From: Candidatus Desantisbacteria bacterium CG1_02_49_89
GTDB lineage: Bacteria > Desantisbacteria > UBA1551
Assembly (NCBI GenBank): GCA_001871075.1
Contig: MNUP01000044.1
Span: forward strand, 1-9,261
Direction: 5' to 3'
Length of the DNA: 9,261 bases
Both the position numbers and the translations under genes were made by a program. The notes under the pieces are model-generated. The model was not told the origin of the DNA. It did no database searches and worked only from the letters and a program-made list of their open reading frames with translations. Positions 123 through 9,045 of this stretch are shown in pieces; positions within the stretch are counted from its first letter, which is position 1; each line of letters begins with the position of its first letter.

Positions 123-1325
123 TCACTCGTGTCTCAATGCCTCTATTGGGTCTAATTTCGCTGCTTTGCTTGCCGGATACACTCCGAAAAATATTCCGAT
201 GAACAGGGCAAATCCGAAAGCCAGGAGCACTGACCACGGCGTGACCGCGGTCGCCACCCATCTGCGAAGCGCGAGCGACCCGCTCCAGCCGATAAGTATC
301 CCTATGATGCCCCCCGTGGCGCTTATGAGGATGGATTCTATGAGGAACTGGGTGAGGATATCACTTTCTTTCGCCCCTATCGCCTTCCTTATGCCTATCT
401 CGCGCGTCCTTTCAGCCACAGTCACAAGCATTATGTTCATTATCCCGATCCCGCCCACAAGCAGGGATATACCGGCTATGCCGCCAAGCGCGACTGTCAG
501 TATCCCGGTGATCTTCTTCAGAGTTTCAAGCACGTCCTTCTGGTCCGTTATGTCAAAATCGTTTTCCGTAAGCCTGCGCAGCAGGATCCTGCGGACTATC
601 CTTTTCGATTCTTCTATCCTGTCCTCGCTGGGCGCCTTGCATACTATGAAATTGACCTTTGTGGTGCCCAGCAATGCCTGCGCGGCAGTGATAGGTATCA
701 CGATCTGGTCATCCTGGTTCTGGCCCATGGTCGCGCCCTTGCTTTCCAGTATGCCTATGATCTTGAATTTTCCGCCGCTTATGGCAATGTCCTTTCCTAT
801 GGGATCCTTGTTGGCAAAGAGCTCTTCCACTATTGTCTTGCCTATCACGCAGACCCTTCTGCGGTTGCTGACCATATTTTCGTTGAAGAACTTGCCGTCC
901 GTCACTTTCTGGCTCAGGGCTTCGGCGTATTTCTCCGTGGTCCCGAATATCGCTGTCATGTATGTTGTATTGCTATATTTCACCACCGCGGACGTGCGCA
1001 GGACCGGCACGACCTCAATGCCTATGCCGTTCTTCGTCTGAATAGCAATTACATCATTATAAGTCATCTTGTTTGACATCATGCCCGGCGGGGTGTGGCT
1101 TTTGCCTCCGCCCATGTTCGGCGAAATAAAGAAAAGGTTCGCGCCAAGGCCCTTTATCTCGTCCGAAACCTGCTCCTTGACCCCCTGGCCTATGGAGACC
1201 AGCATTATTATCGACATGACGCCTATGAGCACGCCCAGCACGGTGAGCGCAGTCCGGACCTTATTAGCTCTCAGCGCCTCAAACGCGTTGCCCATCCCTA
1301 AAAATAGTTTCGCAAAAAAATCCAA
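123..1325 (-). CDS. MacB-like ABC transporter permease, second copy (no ATPase domain)
   Basis: 400-residue inner-membrane permease of the MacB/FtsX type. It has one N-terminal membrane helix (about residues 24-46), a periplasmic MacB core domain (about 50-265) and three C-terminal helices (about 272-300, 324-350 and 365-388). The family signature VGGIGIMNIMLV is followed by ERTREIGIRKAIGAK, and the protein ends in the typical DPIEALRHE. Full MacB carries its own N-terminal ATPase; this protein does not, so it must rely on the separate ATPase at 7303-7992. It resembles the permease at 3156-4370 throughout and may pair with it as a heterodimer (inference). The start is TTG, chosen because AGGAG lies five bases upstream and the N-terminus then aligns with that of the first permease. 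An internal ATG at codon 11 lacks a well-spaced ribosome binding site. A gap of 79 AT-rich bases separates it from the methyltransferase gene upstream. The transported substrate is unknown. Confidence 0.9.
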   Translation of the reverse strand: MDFFAKLFLGMGNAFEALRANKVRTALTVLGVLIGVMSIIMLVSIGQGVKEQVSDEIKGLGANLFFISPNMGGGKSHTPPGMMSNKMTYNDVIAIQTKNGIGIEVVPVLRTSAVVKYSNTTYMTAIFGTTEKYAEALSQKVTDGKFFNENMVSNRRRVCVIGKTIVEELFANKDPIGKDIAISGGKFKIIGILESKGATMGQNQDDQIVIPITAAQALLGTTKVNFIVCKAPSEDRIEESKRIVRRILLRRLTENDFDITDQKDVLETLKKITGILTVALGGIAGISLLVGGIGIMNIMLVTVAERTREIGIRKAIGAKESDILTQFLIESILISATGGIIGILIGWSGSLALRRWVATAVTPWSVLLAFGFALFIGIFFGVYPASKAAKLDPIEALRHE

Positions 1326-1330
1326 GTAAG

Positions 1331-1336
1331 CTCCTG
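1331..1336 (-). promoter_or_regulatory. Ribosome binding site fixing a TTG start
   Basis: The minus strand reads CAGGAG, then CTTAC, then TTG. The five-base spacing to TTG at 1325-1323 supports this non-ATG codon as the start of the second permease. Confidence 0.65.
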
Positions 1337-1353
1337 AGATTAAATTTTATTGA

Positions 1354-1387
1354 TTAATTAGAACCTAATTAGTTTAAATCTAATTAG
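1354..1387. repeat. Iterated TAATTAG palindromes in AT-rich gap
   Basis: The 79-base gap between the methyltransferase gene and the last permease holds CTAATTAG twice (1365-1372 and 1380-1387). A close copy, TTAATTAG, lies at 1354-1361. CTAATTAG is a perfect 8-base palindrome. Start-to-start distances are 11 and 15 bases, which is not exact helical phasing. The copies could be operator half-sites for a local promoter driving the last gene, or simple AT-rich drift at an insertion junction. I could not match a convincing -35/-10 pair. Confidence 0.35.
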
Positions 1388-1404
1388 CAAGCTATCCTAT
1401 AGAA

Positions 1405-2685
1405 TTAGATGGCAGGCGTAGGAACATCCTTCCATGCTGTGGATTTCTCAACTTCCTTCATGCTTACGATCTCGCCTGTTTCTACGTTTATATCAATAAA
1501 CCCGACTGGTTCCCTTGTGGTATTAAAAGAAAGCAGCCCTTTTCCTGAAATATGCTTTCCACGATTGTTGTCTACCTGCACAAATATAACCCGTCTATAC
1601 GAACAAACTTTGCAATCCAAATTTTCTTTGTTAATCCCTATAGGACAATGGTGTCTTCTTGCAAAAACAGGGTCAACATTATGCATTTTGGCCATATGCA
1701 GAGCCGGGGATGCTCTTAAATGGCCAAAAGGATGTAACACCCATTCAGTAATCATGGATAACGTATGGCTTTGTTTGAAAAGATGGAAATCAGAGCCTGT
1801 ATTGGCGATCATGCCCTGCATTACATAGTCAGCCGGCATCAAATAACACAGGTAGTCTTTTTTGCTGTTAAGGAAACCTATCCCTTCCTTGTCCTCACTG
1901 ATAGAGATATCGTTAAGTACTTTCACGGCATGGCTGTTGTCTTCAGGAAGGATGGATATAAGAGTGACATTGTTTCTGTTCTCAAAAGGAATCTGATGCA
2001 AGGTCACTGTCCTGAGGATAAAACCGGTTCCGAGGGTCAAAAATATAAAGACCAGCGGAATTAAAAAATACTTTATATCCGTTGCGGGCATTGTCTTTCC
2101 AAGAAATTTTTCGATAGAACCCGGGAAAAACATACCCGTTTTATTCATATATTCAGCATACGTTTCTCCGTATTGGCCCAACATCCTTCTTTCCTCGTTC
2201 TTTGCAAGAAAATAATAAAGTATAAACATCAGGGATAATGACGCAAGAACAAAGAACCTTGGCCACAATATGGCCATACCTATTCCCCATATCCCTAAAG
2301 CCACATATTGTGGATGGCGGATATATGTGTATAATCCTCTGACAACTGCCCCGCGCTTGAATATCTTGTTAAAATATACCTGGAAAGCGCAGAAAAAGAA
2401 AGTAACGGCGCCTATTATAAAAAACACAGAGCCTAATATACGGATAGTCCTTAAGAATAGGGTTGGGGGTAAAATCATATGGGGCAGGAAGAACGTTGTA
2501 AGCCATCCTGTTATCGCGTATTGATTCAACCATTTGAATACCGGGTTAAAAACAGAATAAAAGAAAAATGCAAAAGGACTTATCATTATCATAACCTCTA
2601 ATGCTATGATGACAAAAAATGCTATGCCTCCATATGCTGAAACGCTCTTCAACCATTCAGTTACTTTTGTTTTATTCGTGCTCAT
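1405..2685 (-). CDS. ICMT/PEMT-family membrane methyltransferase with extra C-terminal domain
   Basis: 426-residue protein in two parts. Residues 1-225 are a multi-helix membrane region (helices near 20-44, 81-105, 126-162 and 205-225). It holds the isoprenylcysteine/phospholipid methyltransferase signature: RGLYTYIRHPQY (116-127), then EER (164-166) and YGETYAEYM (172-180), the expected SAM-binding region. Residues 226-426 are soluble and I do not recognise them; they contain HHC (345-347), C358 and C361 (CKVC), plus H322, H330 and H335, a plausible metal site. The family includes CzcN/NccN of metal-resistance operons, so a metal link is possible; the methyl acceptor is unknown. A longer reading frame opens at a TTG at 2721, but ATG at 2685 has AAGGAGG five bases upstream and is the better start. 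Base composition is clearly lower in GC than the permeases on both sides, suggesting separate origin together with the YHS gene 62 bases upstream. Confidence 0.8.
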   Translation of the reverse strand: MSTNKTKVTEWLKSVSAYGGIAFFVIIALEVMIMISPFAFFFYSVFNPVFKWLNQYAITGWLTTFFLPHMILPPTLFLRTIRILGSVFFIIGAVTFFFCAFQVYFNKIFKRGAVVRGLYTYIRHPQYVALGIWGIGMAILWPRFFVLASLSLMFILYYFLAKNEERRMLGQYGETYAEYMNKTGMFFPGSIEKFLGKTMPATDIKYFLIPLVFIFLTLGTGFILRTVTLHQIPFENRNNVTLISILPEDNSHAVKVLNDISISEDKEGIGFLNSKKDYLCYLMPADYVMQGMIANTGSDFHLFKQSHTLSMITEWVLHPFGHLRASPALHMAKMHNVDPVFARRHHCPIGINKENLDCKVCSYRRVIFVQVDNNRGKHISGKGLLSFNTTREPVGFIDINVETGEIVSMKEVEKSTAWKDVPTPAI

Positions 2686-2690
2686 AAGCT

Positions 2691-2697
2691 CCTCCTT
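2691..2697 (-). promoter_or_regulatory. Strong ribosome binding site setting the methyltransferase start
   Basis: The minus strand reads AAGGAGG, AGCTT, ATG. This near-perfect site selects ATG at 2685-2683 over the in-frame TTG twelve codons upstream, whose preceding bases show no comparable site. Confidence 0.8.
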
Positions 2698-2747
2698 AAA
2701 ACTTTTTTTATCAGATGCCAAACGTACTTTGATCTTTACAAAGCTCC

Positions 2748-3128
2748 TTAATTACTTTTCCCCGGCATGGTTGTGTTCTTTTTTTTCTTTTCCTGCTCTG
2801 CTATTATTTTAATGTATTTCTCCGGGTTCTTTTTGAATTGTTCAACACAATGAGAACAGCAGAAATTATATATTTTGCCCTTGTACGTATATTTAGTTCC
2901 TTTTCCTTTCTCTAATTTCATCCCCATAACCGGGCAATAATCATTCCCAACCTTAACCAATTTCTGAGTTTTTTCCTTTAATGACATACTATCGGTTTTT
3001 GTCCCGGTATTAGTTTCATTATATGAATTTTTCTTCTGCATACTCCAGCAGTGTGCTCTGCCAATAGTTAGCAGTGCCCCAAACATGAATATCAAAACTA
3101 ACAAAATAAATAAAATTTTCTTGCGCAT
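2748..3128 (-). CDS. YHS-domain protein with N-terminal signal or anchor
   Basis: 126-residue protein. Residues 4-23 form a hydrophobic segment preceded by RKK, either a signal peptide or a membrane anchor, so the rest should be outside the cytoplasm. Residues 58-108 form a YHS domain: C65-P-V-M-G, then [15 protein letters not shown] with C90, C91 and C94, then [12 protein letters not shown] domains occur in copper and other heavy-metal handling proteins, so a role as periplasmic metal chaperone or scavenger for the adjacent pump is reasonable but inferred. The C-terminus is lysine-rich. The ATG has GGAGGT four bases upstream. The gene starts 27 bases after the first permease ends. Its low GC content resembles the next gene, not the pump genes. 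Confidence 0.82.
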
Positions 3129-3155
3129 TTTAACCTCCAGGCAAAAGCGGGTTTG

Positions 3156-4370
3156 TCACTCGTAGCGCAACGCTTCGATCGGGTCCATGTCGGCCGCCCT
3201 GCGCGCCGGGTAATACCCGAAGAACACGCCGATCGCTATCGCGAAGCCGAAAGACAGGAAGATCGAGCCGGGGGAAACAAATATCGCCCATTTTGCCAGC
3301 GTTGCTATAAGGATGGACACGATAACACCCACGCATATGCCGATTATCCCGCCGAACAGGCTCAGCATCAATGCTTCTATTATGAACTGGAGCAGGACGT
3401 CGAACCTTTTCGCGCCCACAGCCATCCTTATGCCGATCTCCCTCGTGCGCTCTGTGACCGACACGAGCATTATGTTCATTATGCCTATGCCGCCCACAAG
3501 AAGCGAAACAGAAGCAACGCTTCCCAGGAGCATTGTCATAGTGGTTGCCATTGATGTCGCCGCGGCCATTATGTCGGCCATGTTCATTATCTGGAAATCG
3601 TCGTCCTTACCAGCGCCTATGCGGTGGCGCTGCCTCAGCAGCTCTGTGACCTGCTGCTGGACCAGTGCGATAGCATCGCTGCTTACAGCGGATACCTGTA
3701 TGTTGTTTAGGAAGGTAACTCCCGTAAGTCTTTTCATCACGGTGGTGTACGGCGCGAGTATGGTATCGTCCTGGTCCCCGCCGAAACCCGACCCCTTCTT
3801 CTCGAGCACGCCGACGATCTTGAACTGCATTTTATTGACGCGGACGTTTTTGCCGATGGGGTCGGCGCTTCCGAACAGGTTTTCGGCTACCGTTTTGCCG
3901 ATAATGCATACTTTCGCGGCATCGCGGACCTCCTGCTCGTTGAACGGCACCCCGCTTTCGACTTTCCAGTCCCTTATCTCAAGGAAATCGATATTGGAGC
4001 CCTGGATCCTGGTGTTCCAGTTCTGGTTCCCGTAGATAACCTGGCTCTGGGTGCTTACCATGGGGGCAACATAAGCTGCGGAAGTTATCTCCTTTTTTAT
4101 CGCAAGCGCGTCTACTTCTTTGAGCGAGGTCCTTGAGCCCCAGCCGCCGTGCACGCCGCGTTCATTGGCGCTGCCGGGAAAGATCTGTAGTATGTTATTG
4201 CCCAGGCTTGACATCCGGTCCATTATTGCCTTTTTCGCCCCGGTGCCGACGCTAAGCATGGCTATAACCGCGCCGACGCCTATGATTATGCCCAGCATTG
4301 TAAGGATGGAGCGCATTTTGTTCTGGACCAGGACTTTGTATGACATTTCAATGGTGCTTATCAGATCCAT
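3156..4370 (-). CDS. MacB-like ABC transporter permease, first copy (no ATPase domain)
   Basis: 404-residue inner-membrane permease with MacB topology: a membrane helix at about 21-43, a large periplasmic core (about 45-270) and three helices (about 279-303, 327-357 and 364-388). The FtsX-type signature VGGIGIMNIMLV (292-303) is followed by ERTREIGIRMAVGAK, and the end is DPIEALRYE. The periplasmic core contains the usual CIIGKTVAENLFG and DPIGK motifs, shared with the second permease. The normal MacB ATPase domain is absent, so the protein depends on a separate ATPase, most likely the one encoded at 7303-7992. In MacAB-TolC systems this subunit transmits ATP-driven movement to the periplasm and pushes substrate into the adaptor and channel. 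The start is ATG with AGAGG seven bases upstream. The 185-base gap before it is unusually long for this operon and full of repeats. Confidence 0.92.
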   Translation of the reverse strand: MDLISTIEMSYKVLVQNKMRSILTMLGIIIGVGAVIAMLSVGTGAKKAIMDRMSSLGNNILQIFPGSANERGVHGGWGSRTSLKEVDALAIKKEITSAAYVAPMVSTQSQVIYGNQNWNTRIQGSNIDFLEIRDWKVESGVPFNEQEVRDAAKVCIIGKTVAENLFGSADPIGKNVRVNKMQFKIVGVLEKKGSGFGGDQDDTILAPYTTVMKRLTGVTFLNNIQVSAVSSDAIALVQQQVTELLRQRHRIGAGKDDDFQIMNMADIMAAATSMATTMTMLLGSVASVSLLVGGIGIMNIMLVSVTERTREIGIRMAVGAKRFDVLLQFIIEALMLSLFGGIIGICVGVIVSILIATLAKWAIFVSPGSIFLSFGFAIAIGVFFGYYPARRAADMDPIEALRYE

Positions 4371-4388
4371 TGCTTTTCCTCTGAGAAT

Positions 4389-4452
4389 GATTACGGTGTC
4401 GCCCCTACGGCGACCCGCCGAAGTGGCGGGATTTTTAACCGCGATTACGGTG
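4389..4452. repeat. Two adjacent hairpins flanked by a 10-base direct repeat
   Basis: Hairpin A has stems GTCGCC (4398-4403) and GGCGAC (4409-4414) with a 5-base loop. Hairpin B has stems CCCGCC (4414-4419) and GGCGGG (4425-4430) with a 5-base loop. The 10-mer GATTACGGTG occurs on both sides, at 4389-4398 and 4443-4452. On the minus strand both hairpins fall in the leader just before the first permease gene, with about 27 bases between hairpin A and the start codon. They could tune translation, stabilise mRNA or simply be a mobile palindromic repeat. On the plus strand hairpin B is followed by ATTTTT like a terminator, but no plus-strand gene feeds into it. Confidence 0.6.
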
Positions 4453-4483
4453 ATTATTTAAAAGAGGAATCTTGGCTTTTACA

Positions 4484-4552
4484 AATGACTAATGACTGCT
4501 TTTTTTAGTTATAGCTGTTGACTACTCACTACCCACTATTCACTAATCACTG
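4484..4552. repeat. Degenerate 7-base tandem repeats
   Basis: From 4521 to 4552 the plus strand shows four copies of ACTANNC plus a partial one: ACTACTC, ACTACCC, ACTATTC, ACTAATC, then ACTG. A separate pair of the heptamer AATGACT lies at 4484-4490 and 4491-4497. The exact 7-base period with variable internal bases is clear by eye. The array begins only three bases past the adaptor gene's stop codon. No function is evident; it may be slippage-derived filler or part of a composite intergenic repeat with the neighbouring hairpins. Confidence 0.65.
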
Positions 4553-4555
4553 TAT

Positions 4556-5875
4556 TTACCGCCTGACCCGCATTCCGGGCCCGCCCATGCCGAAAGGCGC
4601 CGCTGTTCCGGTGCCTGAGCCTTTGCCGTTAGCGTTGATCCCAATTACTGCCTGTGTGCCTTCCGCGATTTCCTGCGATTCCACTTCGGTTGACACCCCG
4701 TCTGTTATGCCGGTTTTTACCCTGACAGACCTTATCGTTTTTCCGTCAAAGACCCATAAGGTGCCGAAATTTCCCGCGGGTTTTTTCTGTTCCTGCCGGC
4801 TCGCTCCCCGCTGTCCTTCGGGACCCGCAAGTGCTCGCTGTTTTTCTCCGCCTGCCATCTTCGACGTTCTTTCCCTGCCTGCCGCCTTCGGTTTTTCCGT
4901 TACGGTATCTACGACGGGTTTTTCTCTGTTATTGTTTTTTTGCGCGATCTGCTGCAGCACGTCCGCGGACGGCTTGAACCGCAGGGCTGTGTTGGCAACT
5001 TTAAAGATATCGTTCCTGCGGTCAGTTACTATGCTGATGTTCGCGGTCATTCCCGGCTTTAAAAGCAATTCGTCGTTGCTCACGCCTATTACGACCGTGT
5101 AGGTCACGACCCTTTGCACTATTTCAGGCGCGATGCGGACCTGGCTTACTCTTCCGCTGAAATTTTCCTCTGGGAAGGCGTCCACCGTGAAAACAGCTTC
5201 CTGCCCTTTCTTTATCCGGCCAATGTCCCCTTCGTCTATGTTCGCCTCTATCTGCATTTCGCTGAGGTCCTGGGCTATCGTGAAAAGGGTCGGCGCTGAA
5301 AAGGAAGCCGCTACTGTCTGGCCGGGATTCATATTCCTGTTCACCACTATGCCGCTGATCGGCGAGGTTATGGTGGTATTTTTAAGGTCTGTCATCGCCA
5401 GATCGTATGACGCCTGCGCCTGCTTCATCTGCGCGAGCGCGTTCTGGTATGTTGTTTCAGCCGCGTCCTTGTCGCTGCGGGCAATAAGGTTCTTGGCGAA
5501 CAACTCAGTGTTCCTGTCAAGCGTGCGCTTGGAGTCGTCAACCGCTATCCTCGCCTTCGTAAGGTTCGCGTCCGCCTGGTCAAGCTTTGCCTTGAACGGC
5601 GCGGGGTCTATCTGGGCTATGAGCTGCCCTTTCTTGACCTCGGAATTGAAATCCACGAGAATGTCCTGTATTATTCCCGAGACCTGGCTTCCCACGTCAA
5701 CGGATGTCACCGCGTTCACGGTGCCCGTAGCCGAGATCATGGAAGTAATGCTGCCGCGCTCCACTTTTACTGTTTTGTAGGACAGGCCCGCGGGTTTTCT
5801 TGTAAAAATAATCAGCGCAACAACAACCGCTGCCGCGGCCGCGAACCACCATATTTTTACCTTTATTTTTCTCAC
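4556..5875 (-). CDS. MacA-like periplasmic adaptor (HlyD/membrane fusion protein family)
   Basis: 439-residue inner-membrane-anchored adaptor that would bridge the permease and the TolC channel. In order: a membrane helix (8-24); the first half of the lipoyl-like barrel-sandwich with TGTV and VGSQVSGII (50-69); a coiled-coil hairpin (about 95-165); the second half with TITSPISGIVV (168-178); a beta-barrel (about 205-290) including LLKPGMTANI; and a membrane-proximal domain (about 370-412). Between the last two sits a charged, low-complexity insert (about 310-368) rich in K, E, Q, R and G. The tail is glycine-rich and ends GMRVRR. The start is GTG: GGAGAT stands five bases before it, and an in-frame TAA just upstream rules out a longer protein. 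It follows the TolC gene and precedes the permease, the usual partnership. MacA adaptors stimulate MacB ATPase activity. Confidence 0.92.
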   Translation of the reverse strand: MRKIKVKIWWFAAAAAVVVALIIFTRKPAGLSYKTVKVERGSITSMISATGTVNAVTSVDVGSQVSGIIQDILVDFNSEVKKGQLIAQIDPAPFKAKLDQADANLTKARIAVDDSKRTLDRNTELFAKNLIARSDKDAAETTYQNALAQMKQAQASYDLAMTDLKNTTITSPISGIVVNRNMNPGQTVAASFSAPTLFTIAQDLSEMQIEANIDEGDIGRIKKGQEAVFTVDAFPEENFSGRVSQVRIAPEIVQRVVTYTVVIGVSNDELLLKPGMTANISIVTDRRNDIFKVANTALRFKPSADVLQQIAQKNNNREKPVVDTVTEKPKAAGRERTSKMAGGEKQRALAGPEGQRGASRQEQKKPAGNFGTLWVFDGKTIRSVRVKTGITDGVSTEVESQEIAEGTQAVIGINANGKGSGTGTAAPFGMGGPGMRVRR

Positions 5876-5880
5876 TTTTT

Positions 5881-5886
5881 ATCTCC
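5881..5886 (-). promoter_or_regulatory. Ribosome binding site supporting a GTG start
   Basis: The minus strand reads GGAGAT, AAAAA, GTG. An in-frame TAA at 5881-5879 overlaps this site, so GTG at 5875-5873 is the most upstream possible start for the adaptor. Confidence 0.7.
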
Positions 5887-5907
5887 ATTATATTTTATTT
5901 ATTCCTT

Positions 5908-5950
5908 ATTTTTCCTCTCCCTTGGACGGGAGAGGATTGAGGTGAGGGTT
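5908..5950. repeat. Hairpin-bearing intergenic repeat (REP-like)
   Basis: In the gap between the channel and adaptor genes, CCTCTCCC (5914-5921) and GGGAGAGG (5928-5935) form a perfect 8-base stem with a 6-base loop. On the minus strand the flank before it reads AACCCTCACCTCAAT. This 'CCCTCACCTCAATCCTCTCCC' style matches, from general knowledge, a widespread class of dispersed intergenic palindromes. On the transcribed strand the stem is followed by A residues rather than T residues, so it is unlikely to terminate; it may stabilise upstream mRNA. Confidence 0.6.
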
Positions 5951-5954
5951 ATTT

Positions 5955-7283
5955 CTACGGTATATAAAAGGCGTCCAGCAATCCTGCTGATTTCCTGAGG
6001 CTTGCCACGCTTTCCGCGTAATCGTAAAGCGAGTTGATATGGTTTGTTTTCGCGCCTGTCAGCGTTGTCTGCGCGTCAGCCAGCTCTATCATCGAGCCGA
6101 TGCCCGACAGGTACCTGCCCTGCGCGAGTGAGAAATTCTCTTCCGCGTTCCTCAGGCCTTCAGCTGCCGCATCTATGCTTTCCTTTTTTTCCTGCATTGT
6201 CAGGTAAGCCTGCTCAACTTCCAGCCGCACGGAAAGCTCAAGGCTCTTTTTTCTTTCCAGCGCTATACTCAGGTTCTCGCGCGCGGTGTTAAGCCCTGAA
6301 ATGTTTGAAAAACCCGTGAAAAGCGGGATGGATATCCCAACTCCCGCGTTCCAGGACGAGCCTTCCGGGTGAAAATCATACTCCGCTTTTGCCTGGATGC
6401 CTGACCCGTCTTCCAGGAACATCCTTCTCACTGAGGATGACAGGTTGATCCTGGCTGATCTTATCGAAGATTCCATTTCAAGCACATCAGGCCTGGATCT
6501 GAACGCGCGCTCAAGGCAGTATTCCAGGCCTATGTCAAAAGCAGTCGTGTCGACCGTGTTTTCAACCTCGAAATCAGCCTGTTTCATCCCTATCGCGTTA
6601 CCGAGTTTGAGTTTCGCGATCTTGAGCTTGTTCACGGCGCTGATAAGCGAGAGCCTGTCATTCGCCTTCTGGACCTCCGCCTTCGTGACGTCGATCCTGG
6701 ACTTAATACCTGCCTGGTAAAAATCCTTTGCCTGCGAAAGATGCTCTTCTGACTGCCGCAAAGATTCGGAATCCATTTCTGCCAGGCGTTTTGTTTTTAA
6801 GTATTCGTAATACTGCTGCGTAACGCTGAGTATGATCTCCCGTATTTTATCCTGCAGAAACAGGTCGCCGGAGTTCCTGTCCTCAACATCCAGGCGTAAC
6901 GAGTCGATCGTTTTACCGAAATCCCAGATGTTCTGGGTTAATGAAATTTTCGCCGAATAATCATCCGCCGCCGAAGCAGACAGGTTGTCCTGCCAGACGC
7001 TGTATGAAGCTGAGGCTTTTGCCTGCGGGAAAAGGGAAGAAATGGTCTTTGTCAGGCTGTTCCTTGAGATATTAAGGTTTGATCTCGCTATTTTAAGGTC
7101 AGGCTGGGATTCCAGCGCCATGCTGATGCATCTGCCAAGGCTGAAAACGCCGGTTTCCGCCTGCGCGTCCGCCGCAGGTGCTGCCGCGAATGCGAAGCAC
7201 GGCACCAAGAATGCCGCTATAACCGCTAATGCAGCAAATATTTTCAATGCCCCCAATATTTTTAATGCAGTTAATGTTTTCAA
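5955..7283 (-). CDS. TolC-family outer-membrane efflux protein
   Basis: 442-residue outer-membrane channel subunit; TolC-type proteins trimerise to form a tunnel across outer membrane and periplasm. A signal peptide covers about residues 1-34, with likely cleavage after AFA. Two structural repeats follow: the first starts [20 protein letters not shown] (47-66), and the second, in the back half, starts near [20 protein letters not shown]. Both are the expected alpha-barrel repeat openings, and a strand near [12 protein letters not shown] matches the beta-barrel region. Long amphipathic helices rich in A, E, K and S fill the rest. Length is normal for the family. The start is ATG with AAGGA about ten bases upstream, 19 bases after the ATPase stop. 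An internal oddity is a repeated hexapeptide in the signal peptide ([18 protein letters not shown]). The channel is expected to serve the pump encoded around it. Confidence 0.92.
7215..7268 (-). repeat. 18-base tandem repeat inside the signal-peptide coding region
   Basis: Codons 6-11, 12-17 and 18-23 of the channel gene encode [12 protein letters not shown] and ALAVIA. The first two are close at DNA level (GCATTAAAAATATT against GCATTGAAAATATT); the third shares mainly GCATTA. This looks like an in-frame duplication that lengthened the hydrophobic core of the signal peptide. Confidence 0.6.
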
Positions 7284-7302
7284 TGTCTTTGATATCCTTA
7301 TT

Positions 7303-7992
7303 TTATTTCTTCCCTGAAAGGTCCACTTCCTCCGTAACTTCTCCGTCTTTTAATATTATTATCCTGCGCGCGTTCTCGCCCACGTTCCTGTCGTGCGTGA
7401 CCATTATAACGGTGTGGCCTTCCTCGTTGAGCTTTCTGAGGATCCCTATTATTTCCACGCCTGACTTGCTGTCAAGGTTGCCTGTGGGTTCGTCAGCGAG
7501 TATAATAGCCGGGCTGTTTATGAGCGCCCTTGCTATCGCGACCCTCTGCTGCTGGCCTCCGGAAAGCTCGCTGGGCTTGTGGTTCATCCGGTCTTCCAGG
7601 TTTACCATTTTCATCGCGTTTATCGCTTTTTCCCGCCTTTTTTCCTTCGGGATGTTCGCGTAAAGTAAAGGCAGTTCAACGTTGCCCAGCGCGTTCATCC
7701 TCGGAAGAAGGTTGAAGCTTTGAAACACAAAGCCTATCTTTTTGTTCCTCAGTTCCGCGAGCTCGTCTTTTTCCATATGGCTGGTCTCAATGCCGTCTAT
7801 GGTGATAGTGCCGGATGAAGGCCTGTCAAGGCACCCTATAAGGTGCATCAGCGTGGATTTGCCTGAGCCTGAAGCGCCCATTATGGCAACGAACTCACCT
7901 TTTTCTATGTTTATGTTTATTCCCTTGAGCGCGGGAACTTCTATCTTGCCCAGGTGGTATATTTTTGCTAAATCTTTAGTGCTTATGATCAT
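7303..7992 (-). CDS. MacB/LolD-type ABC transporter ATPase
   Basis: 229-residue cytoplasmic ATPase, the normal length for a stand-alone subunit of the MacB/LolD/FtsE group. All catalytic motifs are intact: Walker A GASGSGKS (39-46), Q-loop Q91 within [12 protein letters not shown], signature LSGGQQQR (143-150), Walker B IILADEPT (163-170) with D167 and E168, D-loop GNLDS (171-175) and H-loop H200 in MVTHD. It should power one or both of the ATPase-less MacB-like permeases encoded downstream. It is the first gene of the transport module, 48 bases after the periplasmic sensor gene, and has AGAGGGG just upstream of its ATG. The leader carries a 9-base tandem repeat. Assignment to the family is secure; LolD and MacB ATPases are hard to tell apart by sequence, and the adaptor and TolC neighbours favour the MacB role. 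Confidence 0.95.
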
Positions 7993-8040: not shown

Positions 8041-8574
8041 TTATCGGCTGCGCGGCGGCGGGGGTCCTGGTTTGTGCGGATGCGGCCCTGTGTCCGAGAA
8101 AAAAGGCATTGCTGCAAGCCCCATCTCCATCCTGTTAAATATCCTGTTGAACCTTTTAGCCTGTTCGGGTTTCAGGCAGCTTCTTGTTTTTATGATGCTG
8201 TCAACCGAGGCGTTCTCGATCTGCGCCTGCAGACCCGATATTTCAAGGATGATCTTCTGTTTTTTTGCCTCATCCACCTTGCCTTCCTTTATCATTCTGA
8301 ACAGCTCTTTCCTGAGTTCGTGGGATCTCCCGGCAAGCGGCGCGATCGTTTTTTGGGATTCTTCGTGGATGCGCAGTATTTCCTTTTTCTGTTCCCCTGA
8401 GATCCCCATTTTCCTGCATAGCATGTCCAAAGGTGCCCTCTTCATGGCGAATCCCGGGCCGCCCGCGCGGAACATTTTCCTTACCGCCGCGTGCCTGAAT
8501 ATCACCGCGGAAGCTACCCCGATGTTCAGGGCAAGCGAAATTATCAATACTGCGGTCATGATCCTGGATCTCAT
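8041..8574 (-). CDS. Membrane-anchored Spy/CnrX-like periplasmic sensor or chaperone
   Basis: 177-residue protein with one N-terminal helix (about 6-26, probably an uncleaved anchor) and an all-helical, charged periplasmic part. It fits the CpxP/Spy/ZraP/CnrX 'periplasmic heavy-metal sensor' fold: helix-start motifs MGISGEQKKEIL (56-67) and LKPEQAKRFNRIF (134-146), the latter being an LTxxQ-like box. Possible metal ligands are H28, C53, H70, H85 and C133, plus a His/Pro tail PHPHKPGPPPP near the C-terminus. I cannot confirm the exact CnrX ligand set. Its ATG follows the anti-sigma stop codon with no spacer (TAAATG), and GGAGGT lies six bases upstream, indicating translational coupling. By analogy with CnrX next to CnrY and CnrH, it probably modulates the anti-sigma factor in response to a periplasmic signal; a chaperone-only role like Spy is the alternative. 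Confidence 0.75.
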   Translation of the reverse strand: MRSRIMTAVLIISLALNIGVASAVIFRHAAVRKMFRAGGPGFAMKRAPLDMLCRKMGISGEQKKEILRIHEESQKTIAPLAGRSHELRKELFRMIKEGKVDEAKKQKIILEISGLQAQIENASVDSIIKTRSCLKPEQAKRFNRIFNRMEMGLAAMPFFSDTGPHPHKPGPPPPRSR

Positions 8575-9045
8575 TTAAGCACCTCCGAGATATTCGCTGT
8601 AAAGACTGCCGAAAGAGTTTTCAGGCAGCGCTTCCAGCGTTTGCAGGTTCAGGGTTGATTCGGTTTCCTTTGAAAAAGCTGATTCGTCGTTCGCCTGGGT
8701 CCAGTAGGTGTTGCCCAGCAGAACTCCGGCCAGCAGGGAAAAGCCTATTATAAGGAAAGAAAATGCCGCGCCTGCGAAAGCTGTCCTGAAACCAAGCCTG
8801 AAGATGCCGGGAACGGTTTCGGCGCCTTCGGCAGAGATCTTTGCTTTTATTTTATTGAAAAAATAAGGCGGGGTTTCGAGAACTTCAGGAACTGCTAGTT
8901 CCTTCAGTATAGCGGATGTGAATTCAATTTCTTCCCTGCATTCCGGGCATGAGTCAAGATGCGCGTTCAGCTCTTCCAGACGGTCAGCGCCCAGCTCGTT
9001 ATCCGCTTTCAAAGAAATGAGTTTTTTCGCGCTCTTGCAGTCCAT
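8575..9045 (-). CDS. Zinc-finger anti-sigma factor, single membrane helix
   Basis: 156-residue membrane protein. The cytoplasmic N-terminus is a zf-HC2/ZAS anti-sigma domain with C3 and the diagnostic H29-x3-C33-x2-C36 (HLDSCPEC), which binds zinc and clamps the ECF sigma factor. One membrane helix spans about 89-111 (FAGAAFSFLIIGFSLLAGVLLG with its flanks), leaving about 45 residues in the periplasm ending EYLGGA. It follows the sigma gene by 53 bases, the usual order for cognate pairs, and has AGGAGG eight bases before ATG. The periplasmic tail is the likely contact point for the Spy/CnrX-like protein encoded immediately after it (inference). Release could occur by conformational change or regulated proteolysis; nothing here decides which. 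Confidence 0.88.
   Translation of the reverse strand: MDCKSAKKLISLKADNELGADRLEELNAHLDSCPECREEIEFTSAILKELAVPEVLETPPYFFNKIKAKISAEGAETVPGIFRLGFRTAFAGAAFSFLIIGFSLLAGVLLGNTYWTQANDESAFSKETESTLNLQTLEALPENSFGSLYSEYLGGA

Follow-up and report, generated by a model that had tools for sequence, protein, structure and literature searches.

Gene content of the locus

The window, by which we mean the whole stretch of DNA analysed here, is one complete contig of 9,261 bp from the 2.48-Mb MAG of a Desantisbacteria bacterium, and all of its genes are encoded on the minus strand (Table 1). Genes for the end of an ECF-type sigma factor, a zf-HC2 anti-sigma-like protein and a Metal_resist protein are accompanied by the components of a MacAB-TolC-like efflux pump, including two MacB-type permeases, here called MacB1 and MacB2. 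Between the permease genes lie the genes of a YHS-domain protein and of an ICMT/PEMT-type membrane methyltransferase. The YHS protein carries the Cys-bearing stretches DYCPVMG and FCCSHC. Neither permease is fused to an ATPase, and with 245.6 and 301.5 bits the two do not reach the cut-off of 966 bits of the NCBIfam model for the MacB macrolide exporter (NF007826).

Table 1. Features of the window; percentages for single genes are identities to the same-order genome G001.
Feature	Coordinates	Strand	Evidence and remarks
ECF-type sigma factor, 3' end, cut by contig end	9102..9261	-	Sigma70_r4_2 42.6 bits vs cut-off 25.7
zf-HC2 anti-sigma-like protein	8575..9045	-	PF13490 37.1 bits vs 22.2
Metal_resist protein (CpxP/CnrX-type), periplasmic	8041..8574	-	PF13801 35.4 bits vs 29.2
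ABC ATPase (MacB/LolD type)	7303..7992	-	PF00005; 69% to G001 orthologue
TolC-like outer-membrane channel	5955..7283	-	PF02321
MacA-like adaptor	4556..5875	-	PF16576/PF13437; 59% to G001 MacA
MacB1 permease; G001 orthologue is the last operon gene	3156..4370	-	MacB_PCD + FtsX; 75% to G001:C81
YHS-domain protein, N-terminal hydrophobic segment (secreted or membrane-anchored)	2748..3128	-	PF04945 45.3 bits vs 30.3; GC 0.339
ICMT/PEMT-type membrane methyltransferase with C-terminal His/Cys-rich domain	1405..2685	-	PF04140 30.9 bits vs 24, PF04191 29.5 vs 25; GC 0.397
MacB2 permease; orthologue in a different G001 operon	123..1325	-	MacB_PCD + FtsX; 65% to G001:C59; separate clade
AT-rich segment, best-fitting limits	1300..3132	.	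likelihood segmentation, 37.5% G+C

The longest open reading frame of the methyltransferase begins with TTG at position 2721. Since the sequence AAGGAGG precedes the ATG at position 2685, the latter is the likelier start, and the TTG of the ORF list is probably wrong. Between the methyltransferase and MacB2 genes (positions 1349-1410) an AT-rich intergenic stretch with repeated CTAATTAG-like palindromes was observed. Promoter and terminator scans gave counts not clearly above those of shuffled sequences, and for this reason no internal promoter is claimed.

Composition and origin of the YHS-methyltransferase segment

The initial annotation had described the YHS and methyltransferase genes as AT-rich from hand counts of single 60-base lines. 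All five counts were exact (22, 25 and 21 of 60 G+C inside the pair; 33 and 33 of 60 in the flanks), and the difference was confirmed by likelihood segmentation, which sets the segment against 51% G+C in the remainder of the window. The limits of the segment nearly coincide with the start codons of YHS and MacB2; the gain in log-likelihood was 57.6 (53.9 in a coarser scan), and none of 200 block shuffles exceeded 15.5. The genomic background was a 507-kb sample, about 20% of the genome, which makes all percentiles approximate: by GC content the pair (38.3%) ranks within the bottom 2.45% of the 1724-bp stretches in this sample; the genome's median gene has 50.8% GC. The methyltransferase gene falls into the 7th percentile for GC and the 6th for fourfold-site GC (0.407), the YHS gene into the 3rd percentile for GC. 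Both are low in synonymous composition, and their codon scores lie between the 4th and 6th percentile, so that the pair differs from the genome average also in the codon-use comparison that the initial annotation had proposed as a check. The other seven complete genes of the window, with GC contents of 0.49-0.54, are not low.

The 18 methyltransferase homologues, including that of the window, range from 38 to 64% GC and mostly lie near the GC content of their flanking genes; in GC-rich genomes the gene is itself GC-rich, for example 0.61 within flanks of 0.61. The low GC content is therefore not intrinsic to the family. In a few loci, among them L036, L129 and L152, the methyltransferase gene has a clearly lower GC content than the genes beside it, and the agreement with the neighbourhood, though strong, is thus not without exceptions.

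In keeping with acquisition, further AT-rich stretches of the genome contain accessory genes, among them a DNA-methyltransferase cluster and the gene of a PIN-like protein. On L174 (G000:C135, positions 359-4153) three adjoining genes with 32% GC look like a DNA-methyltransferase cluster of the restriction-modification type. On L089 (G000:C57, positions 6698-11578), a run of genes with below-average GC appears to encode ArsD/ArsA and, next in the row, an adaptor-like protein, an FtsX-like permease and an ABC ATPase; it is possibly another acquired metal(loid) locus of the same genome. About 5 kb of L072 (G000:C1, positions 2708-7702) reads as N, being masked or withheld.

The operon was compared with one genome of the same order, G001, which has an orthologous operon of ECF sigma factor, zf-HC2, Metal_resist, ABC, TolC, MacA and MacB1 genes (G001:C81). 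This operon stops at MacB1; no YHS or methyltransferase gene follows, and the next genes are unrelated and located on the other strand. The G001 orthologue of MacB2 (65% identity) is part of a separate TolC-MacA-MacB2 operon on another contig (G001:C59). In a MacB tree of 15 sequences each permease of the window pairs with its own G001 orthologue (support 100/100 and 100/99), and a long distance separates the two pairs; a recent tandem duplication was rejected on this ground. The nearest relatives with available context are found in single-permease settings, both for MacB1 (G098:C50, G045:C86) and for MacB2 (G098:C12, G057, G021).

The initial annotation had stated that the two paralogous permeases would otherwise be adjacent, with the pair inserted between them. 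As a description of gene positions in this genome the first part holds; as an ancestral state it has the G001 arrangement and the tree against it, and the insertion between adjacent paralogues is not borne out. That MacB1 and MacB2 once stood side by side in one pump operon would agree with the gene positions in the window, with the occurrence of tandem MacB-type genes in other genomes (e.g., G137:C3) and with the start signal which MacB2 retains directly beside the AT-rich segment. We nevertheless regard it as unlikely, as the G001 operon ends at MacB1 with MacB2 in another operon, the permeases group separately in the tree, and their respective closest relatives with available context stand in single-permease settings. 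One relative is thin evidence, and an ancestral permease pair may instead have been split on the G001 side. Joint transfer of MacB2 with its own adaptor was discarded: a further MacA like that of G001:C59, which would indicate such a move, was not found in this genome.

From composition and gene order, we consider it most likely that the pair has a foreign origin and was attached to the end of an efflux-pump operon presumably controlled by metal stress; acquisition is our best reading, held with moderate confidence, and on this reading it would have been recent. The AT-rich segment, with the YHS gene followed by that of the two-domain ICMT-type methyltransferase, would have been gained horizontally and added downstream of MacB1, at the former 3' end of the conserved operon. 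MacB2 would derive from another operon and would have joined the locus separately, with no order of the two events implied. Of the two-gene cassette that the initial annotation saw acquired into the pump operon, the gain itself is supported by the foreign composition and by the operon without the pair in G001. The notion of a fixed cassette is weak, because most relatives of the methyltransferase have no YHS gene beside them; the combination recurs once, in G032.

Against acquisition stands the phylogenetic position of the methyltransferase, whose closest relative belongs to the same order (G001, 70% identity; sisters with support 97/100). This identity resembles that of vertically inherited operon genes (65-75% for MacB1, MacB2 and the ABC ATPase versus G001), so that the lineage may long have possessed the gene and only its location may have changed. 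It would then be an old vertical Desantisbacteria gene which was moved to its present place together with the YHS gene and kept, or drifted to, a low GC content. G001 itself has about 39-40% GC and its methyltransferase gene the same composition, which is in line with such a history. A long-resident gene in a genome of 50% GC should, however, match its surroundings, as do the other complete genes of the window and the homologues in GC-rich genomes; transfer from a low-GC relative within the Desantisbacteria fits both tree and composition, and the YHS gene is without a relative in G001. We consider relocation of an old gene rather unlikely. The G001 methyltransferase (L033:1-231, on the same contig as L094, G001:C37) is without the first ~50 residues, with no matching frame upstream, and the gene may be truncated or damaged.

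On the contig, which at 9.3 kb is short, no mobility gene or recombinase, target duplication, terminal repeat or clear border repeat was found; repeat pairs at the segment edges were short and at chance level. One family-profile scan of the viral contigs (viral_contigs) yielded no relative. Among 157 matching plasmid records none covers 80% of the methyltransferase query, and the best of them cover only its catalytic half. Viral carriage, and plasmid carriage of the full protein, were accordingly rejected. As a single short MAG contig makes up the entire window, a chimeric assembly or binning artefact joining pieces of different organisms was considered as well. It appears very improbable, given that G001, of the same order, supplies the best match for the methyltransferase and for the genes on both sides, and that neither reading frames nor ribosome-binding sites are disrupted at the joins.

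The two-domain methyltransferase and its genomic context

The acquisition itself would be mostly an ordinary bacterial gene gain; the part worth following is the two-domain methyltransferase family. The window protein exceeds the cut-offs of both Pfam families (Table 1), and in an alignment of five sequences (A1) the motifs RHPQY and EE(R/K)RM, corresponding to the RHPxY and glutamate SAM-binding motif region, are invariant or nearly so. With 56.2 bits it misses the equivalog cut-off of 160 bits for protein-S-isoprenylcysteine O-methyltransferase (NF040696) and is thus not to be called by this name. Full-length relatives occur in Desantisbacteria and in Thermodesulfobacteriota, the latter with about 56-62% identity; more distant ones are near 41-43%.

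The C-terminal ~200 residues (~240-437) start with one predicted membrane helix; the domain behind it contains a conserved stretch rich in His and Cys (HMAKMHxVDPxxARRHHCPxxI..C..CxYRR), which the three most distant family members have lost. The domain has no Pfam match. The structure model of the full-length protein was poor (pLDDT 51.6) and reached 70.6 for the C-terminal domain alone; comparison of the domain model with the PDB gave no match with E <= 0.001 (best Z 4.2) and no clear fold, which does not make the fold a new one.

In G226 and G225 the methyltransferase gene is located downstream of ECF sigma factor, zf-HC2 and Metal_resist genes, in G589 downstream of zf-HC2 and Metal_resist genes, and in G145 it is separated by about 1-2 kb from a Metal_resist gene of the opposite strand. 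The genomes carry one to eight Metal_resist genes each. After near-identical genomes were collapsed, a Metal_resist gene was present within 6 kb of the methyltransferase gene in four independent lineages versus 0.2 expected (P 3.5e-5). As the 6-kb limit was set after inspection of the window, the count without the window is fairer, with three lineages versus 0.19 expected (P 8e-4). In PDB searches, the G226 Metal_resist protein showed similarity to the Ni/Co sensor CnrX (entered there as CnrR; E 0.0025); for the window's protein, of the same Pfam family, no CnrX was found.

Several features of these neighbourhoods were recorded besides. In G225 a DDE transposase gene (L130:4789-6345) is situated between a 99-aa zf-HC2 gene and the Metal_resist gene, and the zf-HC2 gene of G226 (L131) has 171 aa and no transposase, which suggests that an IS insertion shortened the anti-sigma factor in G225. 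Both loci encode a ~294-aa membrane protein without Pfam match between the Metal_resist and methyltransferase genes (L131:7228-8109 and L130:2961-3848). Genes that by inspection of the sequence look like ChrA (chromate transporter) occur near the methyltransferase in several Thermodesulfobacteriota (L155:6042-7220, L154:3815-4342, L131:4133-5287).

Two further contexts concern the YHS protein. In G032 the YHS and methyltransferase genes follow a metal-type P-type ATPase; the contig end truncates this methyltransferase, which shows only 45% identity over its N-terminal part. In G086 the gene of the nearest YHS relative (35-38%) directly adjoins ABC ATPase and FtsX-type permease genes.

As a tentative and rather doubtful proposal, the family, which combines an ICMT-type membrane methyltransferase with a conserved exposed domain and is distributed over Desantisbacteria and Thermodesulfobacteriota, could be an undescribed one whose members act as effectors of CnrYXH-like ECF regulons and handle a metal or metalloid, perhaps by methylating, at the membrane, either the metal or a ligand bound to it. 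The C-terminal domain is conserved in two phyla, and its genes recur in association with metal-responsive ECF modules; it may matter and offers a concrete handle on the question why ICMT-type methyltransferases recur in metal-resistance clusters. To our knowledge, no substrate has been established for the methyltransferases of such clusters.

Proposed function and comparison with known systems

The link to Metal_resist genes, the contexts in G032 and G086 and the published loci with ICMT, CzcN and NccN genes together favour a role in metal or envelope stress. The pair may serve as an accessory to the response to copper-like metal stress in the envelope. We infer a regulation in which metal or envelope stress would act on the Metal_resist/zf-HC2 pair and free the sigma factor, which would then transcribe the operon, presumably as one unit. 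The MacA-MacB-TolC-type pump would export its substrate from the periplasm, and the YHS protein could bind a thiophilic metal outside the membrane, copper being our leading guess. The methyltransferase would methylate a substrate that is embedded in the membrane or linked to metal, and its exposed His/Cys-rich tail could contact the metal or the substrate.

The closest known arrangements are the mobile merR-copA-cupredoxin-DUF2933-ICMT copper islands of Alteromonas and others, for which ICMT genes have been reported (PMC8478169) and were seen in the sequences here as well. As in the present case, a small ICMT-type membrane methyltransferase stands at the end of the metal-resistance cluster, and the two enzymes share 34% identity over the catalytic part. 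The window protein differs by its additional C-terminal domain of ~200 residues; moreover, the YHS gene takes the place of the cupredoxin and DUF2933 genes, and the pump is MacAB-TolC-like instead of CopA. Membrane-bound ICMT-type methyltransferases, CzcN and NccN, are likewise found in efflux-pump metal-resistance loci of Cupriavidus; CzcN, reported with about 216 aa, is too short for the C-terminal domain and is set apart by this description (PMC7563307).

With CnrYXH-type modules the window shares an ECF sigma factor, an anti-sigma factor and a Metal_resist protein encoded upstream of an efflux pump, but the pump is of the ABC/MacB type and not RND, and the anti-sigma factor is a zf-HC2 protein. 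The MacAB-TolC pump is matched by the adaptor, the TolC channel, the ABC ATPase and the MacB_PCD/FtsX permeases; in the window, however, ATPase and permease are encoded by separate genes, and both permeases stay below the NCBIfam threshold for MacB.
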